Below are positions 7,047 through 8,838 of a DNA stretch of 64,000 nt, one piece after another (position 1 is the first letter of the stretch; the number at the start of each line of letters is the position of its first letter). A program made the translations under genes and the position numbers. The DNA comes from Fibrobacter sp. UWB4 (lineage in GTDB: Bacteria; Fibrobacterota; Fibrobacteria; Fibrobacterales; Fibrobacteraceae), in the NCBI RefSeq assembly GCF_002210345.1, contig NZ_MWQI01000001.1:62001-126000 (forward strand). Direction: 5' to 3'. The notes beneath the pieces are model-generated. The model ran no database searches. It was not told the origin of the DNA and worked only from the letters and a program-made list of their open reading frames with translations.

Positions 7047-7078
7047 GTGCGGTAAATGCCTGCGAAAATTGCGAAAGC

Positions 7079-7107
7079 AAAAAGGACGAGTTTGAACTCG
7101 TCCTTTT
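7079..7107 (+). terminator. Terminator of the nrd operon
   Basis: AAAAGGACGAG-TTTGAA-CTCGTCCTTTT is a strong hairpin with a T-rich right arm, just after nrdG. Confidence 0.8.
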
Positions 7108-7227
7108 GTGTTAGTGTGTAAATATTTTTTATAACAAAATAAAAGAGTAATGCTTTGCCATCCTGTAATTAATAAATAGAAAGGCCTTAAAGCCTTGATT
7201 GCTATTAAATTACAAGGAGAAAATGAA

Positions 7228-8163
7228 ATGGCAGATAATGCAGCTCAAAAAATCGTTCCTGGTGGATGGATTGTCCATGTCATCACTGAAAATTTCCCAG
7301 AAGCATTTAAACTAGCTTTTTTAAAACTAAACAGAGATAACCATTATGAATACACGCCAATAGCCCTGTTGGCAACTCAGCTTGTCAATGGTGAAAATTA
7401 CGTTGCTCTCGCCGAGCAAAAAATTTATGGCAATCCAATCATCAAAAACTATGTTCGTATAATATTTTACGCAAAGTTTGATGCAAAAGAACTTTCTGAT
7501 GTTGAAATAAGTTCCATTACTCCGCTTCCTCATGATTGCGTATGGGTAATGATTCCAGATGGACAAAGGGTATATGTCGCCGACATCATCAGGGAATACG
7601 AAAAATCACAGCAAAATAGCAACCAGGCAATTGCAGACGAATGGGAAAAGGATGCTATTGTCGCAGATTGGCCAAAGGACATTGATGACGCCATAGCTGT
7701 ATTGAACGAGCGCCTGGGATTATCTTATAAAATGATAGCCTGTGTTGGCAAACGTGTTTTAAATGGTGTCGATTATGCCATTGTCGCAGAACAGTCGGTA
7801 ATGAGATGTCCGGATGAAAAGAATGTCGTTTTTGTACAGTTCCATGCTTTCGAAGGAAAAATTACAATTTATTCCGTAGAACTCATTCTTGAAGGTCATG
7901 CAAAGCCAATACCTGGCGGAATAGTAATAGAACCCTGCGCAGGACTTCCCAAGGATGTACAAGAAGAATTCGATTCCGTCATGAAACACTGTGGAGGCAT
8001 GGACGTCAAGCCGTTCGCTTACCTCGGGTATCAGGTTGTAAATGGAACGAACCGATTTATCGTAGCCGAAGTAACGCCAAAGTACATGTGGGCGAAGAAG
8101 CGAATCTCGCTTGTTACCATTAACGCCCAGGATAATTCAATCAAATTCGTTGACATCCATTAA
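7228..8163 (+). CDS. Three tandem cystatin-like units, cytoplasmic
   Basis: A 311-aa protein with no signal peptide. It holds three repeats of about 75-100 residues, each with a short helix, then a Tyr-rich strand and a QxVxG-type loop: QLVNGENY (51-58), RVLNGVDY (176-183) and QVVNGTNR (269-276). The loops match the QVVAGTNY loop of cystatins and stefins, and GG pairs precede units one and three (PGGW at 11-14, PGG at 229-231). Cystatins block papain-like cysteine proteases with these two sites. The ATG at 7228 has AAGGAG eight bases upstream and is preferred over an earlier in-frame start. Inhibitor function is inferred, not shown. Confidence 0.65.
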   Translation: MADNAAQKIVPGGWIVHVITENFPEAFKLAFLKLNRDNHYEYTPIALLATQLVNGENYVALAEQKIYGNPIIKNYVRIIFYAKFDAKELSDVEISSITPLPHDCVWVMIPDGQRVYVADIIREYEKSQQNSNQAIADEWEKDAIVADWPKDIDDAIAVLNERLGLSYKMIACVGKRVLNGVDYAIVAEQSVMRCPDEKNVVFVQFHAFEGKITIYSVELILEGHAKPIPGGIVIEPCAGLPKDVQEEFDSVMKHCGGMDVKPFAYLGYQVVNGTNRFIVAEVTPKYMWAKKRISLVTINAQDNSIKFVDIH

Positions 8164-8187
8164 AATCATCAAAAAGGAGCTAACAAA

Positions 8188-8739
8188 ATGCCAGAAACAA
8201 GAAAATGTGGTGGATGGATATTCCAAATAAGTCTGGATTCCATGCCTGAAAAAGTCGCTACAGCTTTCGGTGAATTAAACAAACTGAAAGGCGTAAGATA
8301 CAAACCTGTAGCTTATCTCGGTTCCCAAGTCGTTAACGGAACAAATTATGCCGTTCTCGCCGAACAGGTTATCTTCGATGCTGAAAACACCAAGAACCTC
8401 GTTCTCATCGTTTTTAACGTCGCCCCAAATGCGCCAGAAGCAACTGTCGTCTATATCAAGCCCGTTCTTGACGGCTTTTCGCAAGAATTTGGCGGAATCG
8501 TCTTCCTTGACGATTTCAAGATTACCGAAGACGCTCAGAAGGATTTCGATTCTGTCCAAAAAGAATTTGTCGGATCGAATGTTGAACCGTTCGCACTCGT
8601 TGCAAAACAAATTGCAAAGGGCGTCAATTACTACTTCGTGGCCATTGTCACCCCGCTTTATCCTGGTGCAGAACCAAGTGTTGACTTAGTCATTATCAAT
8701 GCCATGTGCTATACTATTGAATTTAAGAAGATTCTTTAG
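8188..8739 (+). CDS. Two tandem cystatin-like units
   Basis: A 183-aa cytoplasmic protein, paralogous to the preceding gene and 24 bp behind it in the same operon. The first unit has CGGW (7-10), a helix, and SQVVNGTNYAVLAEQ with the cystatin-type loop at 47-51. The second has FGGIV (101-105) and the more divergent QIAKGVNY (141-148). Strands after each loop fit the cystatin sheet. AAAGGAG precedes ATG. If the units inhibit proteases, the first should be the active one, since the second loop departs from the motif. Confidence 0.65.
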   Translation: MPETRKCGGWIFQISLDSMPEKVATAFGELNKLKGVRYKPVAYLGSQVVNGTNYAVLAEQVIFDAENTKNLVLIVFNVAPNAPEATVVYIKPVLDGFSQEFGGIVFLDDFKITEDAQKDFDSVQKEFVGSNVEPFALVAKQIAKGVNYYFVAIVTPLYPGAEPSVDLVIINAMCYTIEFKKIL

Positions 8740-8761
8740 AATAGAACATAAATAAAGCGAT

Positions 8762-8794
8762 AAGCCGTTTGATGCAAGTCAAGCGGCTTTTTTT
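8762..8794 (+). terminator. Terminator after the cystatin-like genes
   Basis: AAGCCGTTTGA-TGCAAG-TCAAGCGGCTT forms an 11-bp stem with one G-T pair, followed by a run of T. Confidence 0.85.
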
Positions 8795-8838
8795 ACGGTT
8801 CCGGTTGTGATTTATCACGTCAACTCTCTTTCTTGAAT

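Follow-up and report, generated by a model that had tools for sequence, protein, structure and literature searches.

Cystatins are commonly described as having arisen in eukaryotes, with a scattering of copies in bacteria, and a plant multicystatin with eight units is known. PrsW and lysozyme-triggered ECF factors are likewise known from other bacteria. Bacterial stefins and cystatins are already described by Kordis and Turk 2009 (PMC2784779); in one of them, from Polaribacter, the cystatin domain is triplicated, and the Fibrobacteres are listed as being without cystatins.

The window analyzed here (the whole 64,000-nucleotide stretch of DNA from Fibrobacter sp. UWB4) contains an operon of two genes on the forward strand. 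Gene 1 (7228..8163) encodes 311 aa with three cystatin-like units, and gene 2 (8188..8739), which follows after a gap of 24 bases, encodes 183 aa with two; both start with ATG (at 7228 and 8188), and both products are predicted to be cytosolic. A ribosome-binding-like sequence was located ahead of each gene (AAGGAG, 7214..7219; AAAGGAG, 8173..8179). On the same strand, a promoter-like element (GAGTAA-N14-GTAATTAA, 7145..7172), a probable ECF sigma target, lies upstream, and a terminator-like hairpin with a T run (8762..8789) is found at the operon end. The neighbors are nrdG upstream and an SGNH-hydrolase-like gene downstream, both named by reading the sequence; Rfam returned zero matches in the operon region. 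The sequence-only reading had proposed a two-protein operon with five cystatin-like units and without signal peptides, and this was borne out: both reading frames and five profile-recovered units are present, and on inspection neither N-terminus is signal peptide-like.

In protein 1, unit 1 (aa 12-101; 7261..7530) carries both inhibitory elements, PGG and QLVNG (then NY), and unit 3 (aa 230-310; 7915..8157) has PGG and QVVNG (then NR). In protein 2, CGG and QVVNG (then NY) were found in unit 4 (aa 8-96; 8209..8475), and FGG and QIAKG (then NY) in unit 5 (aa 102-182; 8491..8733). Unit 2 (aa 142-224; 7651..7899) is degenerate: GG is absent and the loop reads RVLNG (then DY), such that Gly and Gln are both lost, while the cystatin fold is kept in the model. 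All five units are encoded on the forward strand; in the alignment of units, the kept positions are a G-G close to the beginning and a Q-x-V-x-G that N-Y follows. A GG pair is present in four of the five, and exact QxVxG in three (units 1, 3, and 4), which, judged by their motifs, could be complete inhibitors. The three QxVxG-like loops that had been listed earlier are real, but they are three of five, the loop of unit 2 being degenerate. In searches of the organism's own genome, each protein recovered the other; with protein 2 as the query, units 2-3 of protein 1 were matched at E 8.9e-27 and unit 1 at E 9.9e-13, far above chance. The pairing of GG with QxVxG was checked in orthologues and holds; exact QxVxG occurs in 21 of 26 Fibrobacter units and in 101 of 111 units from other bacteria. 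The homology of the repeats, the fold, and the conservation among orthologues rule out a chance motif.

AlphaFold2 was used to model both proteins. With relatives in the alignment, the model of protein 2 had a pLDDT of 91.4 and a pTM of 0.85; for protein 1 the values were 90.4 and 0.60, the units being confident and their arrangement uncertain. Every unit in both models has E-H-E-E-E-E secondary structure (with a short initial strand in unit 2), and both models have the cystatin topology, i.e. beta1-alpha-beta2-beta3-beta4-beta5 with the helix wrapped by the antiparallel sheet of four to five strands. Foldseek ranked cystatins best in the PDB, with E values that were modest because the query has two domains. 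In a second fold comparison, the highest-ranked entries for either protein were cystatins, with rmsd values of about 3-4 over 80-92 residues and Z scores of 8-9, which are middling on the comparison tool's own scale. Protein 2 was matched to 4n6l (Z 8.9, rmsd 3.8, 92 aligned), to tarocystatin in complex with papain (3ima_D; Z 8.3, rmsd 3.0, 81 aligned), and to stefin B in complex with papain (1stf_I; Z 7.8, rmsd 3.3, 91 aligned); protein 1 was matched to 4n6n_B (Z 9.1, rmsd 2.9, 87 aligned). The best solved-structure matches include inhibitors in complex with papain and legumain. The best match in a BFVD fold search, a giant-virus "Cystatin domain-containing protein", reached only E 0.02. The weight of the predicted fold rests on the near-uniform cystatin top rows and the agreeing motifs, not on the Z values.

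Neither protein was matched in Pfam or NCBIfam, and at its curated cut-off PF00031 (Cystatin) left both proteins and 13 units unmatched. The unit profile alone, compared with the PDB, found cystatins at E 0.19 and worse, ranked under one spurious match. A bridge to PF00031 and stefin A is provided by the secreted Fibrobacter cystatins: the unit profile matches them (hhalign probability 93.6, E 2e-7), their domains match stefin A in the PDB (E 1.5e-7), and the set matches PF00031. Structure prediction, fold comparison (stefin B included), and these profile links together support the cystatin fold that had been proposed. The proteins depart from the single-domain stefins (I25A) in having two or three units per chain, though they are cytosolic by sequence; single-unit relatives were found in one Fibrobacter genome (G033) and one phage (L046). 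They also differ from type 2 cystatins (I25B), as the signal peptide is absent, the second hairpin has no PW, and cysteines are few. The second hairpin is without the cystatin Trp, as it is in stefins. A flavodoxin-cystatin lipoprotein from the secreted set (L001:793-1689, on contig C6 of the same genome) is kept in 17 of 17 further Fibrobacter loci (L029-L045).

The family of the window proteins is present in 12 of 80 Fibrobacter genomes, and its distribution is patchy. In close relatives of the window genome, with an nrdG that is 98-99% identical, the interval from nrdG to the SGNH gene is occupied by other cargo: G013 has a gene for an ATPase-like protein of 437 aa, DUF4143-like judging by its sequence, and G001 has a different small gene. 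The operon is therefore an accessory insertion. The variable spot corresponds to 7047-8830 of the window, with counterparts in L331 and L332. An initial scan of bacterial genome contigs with the G130 protein as the query gave zero matches; the bacterial genome scan yielded 60 relatives. These include three-unit cytosolic proteins in Ruminococcus albus, single units from Synergistaceae, cytosolic genes in tandem in Brachyspira, and many lipoproteins from gut Firmicutes. In Brachyspira hampsonii, five cytosolic two-unit cystatin genes follow one another in tandem (L227:6216-9960). The earlier statement that bacterial cystatins are rare consequently needs qualification, relatives being found in many gut bacteria and in large phages.

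The promoter-like element was aligned as GAGTAA-N14-GHAWTWAA upstream of the window operon and of the cystatin genes of G018, G130, G144, G033, and G150. In the window genome and others, the same block precedes the gene of a small two-helix membrane protein, which is divergent from genes for an ECF sigma factor, a membrane protein, and a PrsW-type protease (L202, i.e. C1:1015000-1027000 of the window genome, 4656-7386). The strict pattern had four matches in this genome (one at the window operon, two at the sigma locus, and one other) and the reversed pattern none; two of the four had been used to build the pattern, and the other sigma-locus site is independent. The fourth match (C2:215703), near a peptidyl-tRNA-hydrolase-like reading frame, is probably due to chance. 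Over the 80 genomes, 44 matches were obtained, compared to 24 for the reversed pattern, and by manual count about half of the 44 precede sigma-locus or cystatin genes. Others precede genes for a patatin phospholipase, a PI-PLC, a barnase-like ribonuclease, and an adenosine deaminase-like protein. The element is shared by the operon and the sigma locus and is rare in the genome, as for members of one regulon; we infer a small regulon of effector-like genes that responds to envelope stress. Across the genus, the sigma locus apparently controls phospholipase, nuclease, and cystatin genes. The element is absent before the cystatin gene in five other Fibrobacter genomes (G011, G014, G117, G141, and G147), so control differs between lineages. 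Genes for two large proteins of 801 and 828 aa (L076:8532-13444), neither with a significant family match, stand beside a patatin gene and genes for a cystatin and a ribonuclease-like protein.

The cystatin reading of the operon is right in fold and probably right in biochemistry. The account that we prefer, to which we assign an even chance, is that the products are multi-headed, stefin-like intracellular inhibitors, driven by the ECF factor under envelope stress and directed against a foreign papain-like cysteine protease. Inhibition, target, sigma control, and protective purpose are what we infer, as follows. Envelope stress would lead to PrsW-dependent proteolysis that removes an anti-sigma factor, and the freed ECF sigma factor would drive the operon. 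In an intact unit, the N-terminal Gly segment and the QxVxG hairpin would form an edge that plugs the active-site cleft of a papain-like protease; inhibition would be reversible, and the inhibitor itself would not be cut. The target would be a foreign protease that comes into contact with cytosol or lysate when the cell is attacked, most likely a digestive cysteine protease of rumen protozoa or other rumen microbes. Rumen protozoa are bacterivores in which cysteine peptidases are important (PMC6908469). The sequence-only reading had also offered an internal papain-like protease as the enzyme guarded against; this is disfavored in the window genome (99.99% complete), where a search covering the Peptidase_C1 family of cysteine peptidases found none at E 0.01, while three positive control genomes were matched. 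A foreign target is the better guess because this genome has no detectable C1 peptidase, and the target is probably foreign. Several points stand against the preferred account: a cytosolic inhibitor contacts protozoal enzymes only after lysis; unit 2, by its sequence, has neither inhibitory element; the second hairpin has no cystatin Trp; Pfam and NCBIfam leave both proteins unmatched, and the unit profile by itself comes no closer to PDB cystatins than E 0.19; five other Fibrobacter cystatin genomes have no promoter element before the gene; and in five genomes a secreted C1-like protease occurs alongside the cystatins.

Outside Fibrobacter, the closest relatives come from large rumen phages and have two units. 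A first viral scan with protein 2 as the query returned a 92-aa single-unit protein beside an HNH-like gene; a search with the unit alignment added 22 further viral contigs with relatives at 40-56% identity, most with two units per chain. Several of the cystatin-bearing contigs are 100-313 kb long, and phage hallmarks were identified on them, namely a terminase (L057), a tape-measure protein (L064), and the beta subunit of a phage RNA polymerase (L050). Some viral contigs had a low density of reading frames; a recoded genetic code was tried for these, and no code was clearly better. The phage relatives suggest recruitment of the units against a protease of another organism. Under the preferred account, rumen phages would put this fold to a similar use, e.g. 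protecting the virion or blocking a protease of the attacked cell. A broader proposal, which we regard as tentative and somewhat improbable, is that a cytosolic cystatin shared by large phages and bacteria acts on a papain- or caspase-like protease of conflict, as yet undescribed, as its inhibitor, and that Fibrobacter has placed it in a stress regulon with a phospholipase and a nuclease; if true, the conflict would be between phage and bacterium or between predator and bacterium.

A rival explanation, which we consider rather improbable, is a phage-host conflict. The phage cystatin would inhibit a protease (clan CA or CD) that serves as an effector of bacterial immunity, and the Fibrobacter copy, once acquired, would be used in the same conflict to prevent self-damage or to counter a protease of the phage itself. 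The viral relatives and hallmarks described above are consistent with this, as is the location of the operon at a spot that holds other cargo in relatives. In a tree of the two-unit proteins, the Fibrobacter sequences form one clade (100/97) joined to, and sitting inside, the phage set, two L066 phage proteins branching outside Fibrobacter and the other phage proteins (94/89); however, the tree was rooted by midpoint and gives no direction of transfer. Also against this proposal, the PADLOC defense gene models left the proteins unmatched, and a conserved gene neighbor of the phage cystatins was sought and none was found. PHROGs left the phage copy unmatched, tblastn against the annotated phage genomes of INPHARED gave no match, and a limited literature search found no phage-encoded cystatin.

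The fold could instead serve binding rather than inhibition, as in monellin, latexin, and affimers, the proteins being adaptors or, in phages, virion-associated proteins addressed by a C-terminal peptide. Many phage cystatins end in LGxPLGEWP and/or LGYAFTW, and the first of these also terminates at least three other kinds of protein on more than 100 viral contigs; it is possibly a sorting or packaging tag. Some phage copies adjoin a tape-measure or tail-fiber gene (L064, L066), and the loss of both motifs in unit 2 also fits a binding role. Nonetheless, bacteria and phages alike conserve the Gly and QxVxG elements, for which there is no obvious role in the fold that would force their pairing; we consider this explanation doubtful. 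The unrelated rumen phage proteins that carry the nine-residue LGxPLGEWP (L048-L069, L081-L160) comprise cystatins and lipoproteins, a domain of unknown function of about 180 aa, and a short protein that is helical, and LGYAFTW often precedes it in phage cystatins. A protein of about 180 aa (MNxxRLKILPPWT...; L083:5835-6374 and relatives) was found in dozens of rumen phages, was unmatched in Pfam and PHROGs, and is fused to cystatin units in L050 and L060.

Seven of the 80 Fibrobacter genomes encode a secreted C1-like enzyme in which Cys, His, and Asn motifs are recognizable, and five of the seven (G018, G033, G117, G137, and G144) also have the cystatins, compared to 12 of 80 overall (Fisher p 0.0006, relatedness ignored); a self target is therefore possible in those five. 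This secreted papain-like protein carries additional C-terminal sequence (L268:874-2790, L270:343-2256). That the cystatins are endogenous regulators of an own cysteine protease such as this one is nevertheless very improbable, as the window genome has cystatins and neither the C1-like enzyme nor a detectable C1 peptidase, and the N-terminus of the enzyme is signal-like while those of the cystatins are not.

Cytosolic, tandem, stress-promoter-linked cystatins in rumen bacteria and large phages point to a hitherto unrecognized conflict over a protease of bacteria, phages, or protozoa, one that is open to cheap assays, and they offer a concrete handle on phage-encoded protease inhibitors. Among known systems, the type 1 stefins (stefins A and B) share with the window proteins a cytosolic location, the absence of a signal peptide, independence from disulfides, the beta-alpha-beta4 topology, the N-terminal Gly, and QxVxG; the window proteins differ in having tandem units per chain, a two-gene operon, and N at the variable position of QxVxG. 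Identity to solved cystatins is about 10-20%, beyond the reach of PF00031. Plant multicystatin (4lzi) and the kininogens similarly are multi-headed, with several units per chain, but they are eukaryotic and their gene context is unrelated. The secreted Fibrobacter cystatins (the flavodoxin-cystatin lipoprotein, G000:C6, and the tandem lipoproteins of G006) share genus and domain family; unlike the window proteins, they are exported, fused to other domains, and form a separate, more canonical set. The bacterial cystatins of Kordis and Turk (PMC2784779) are also patchy and laterally spread, and in the portions consulted neither an ECF promoter nor phage versions appear. New here are a cytosolic operon of tandem cystatins, the connection of this operon with an ECF/PrsW circuit, and the occurrence of close relatives in large phages.
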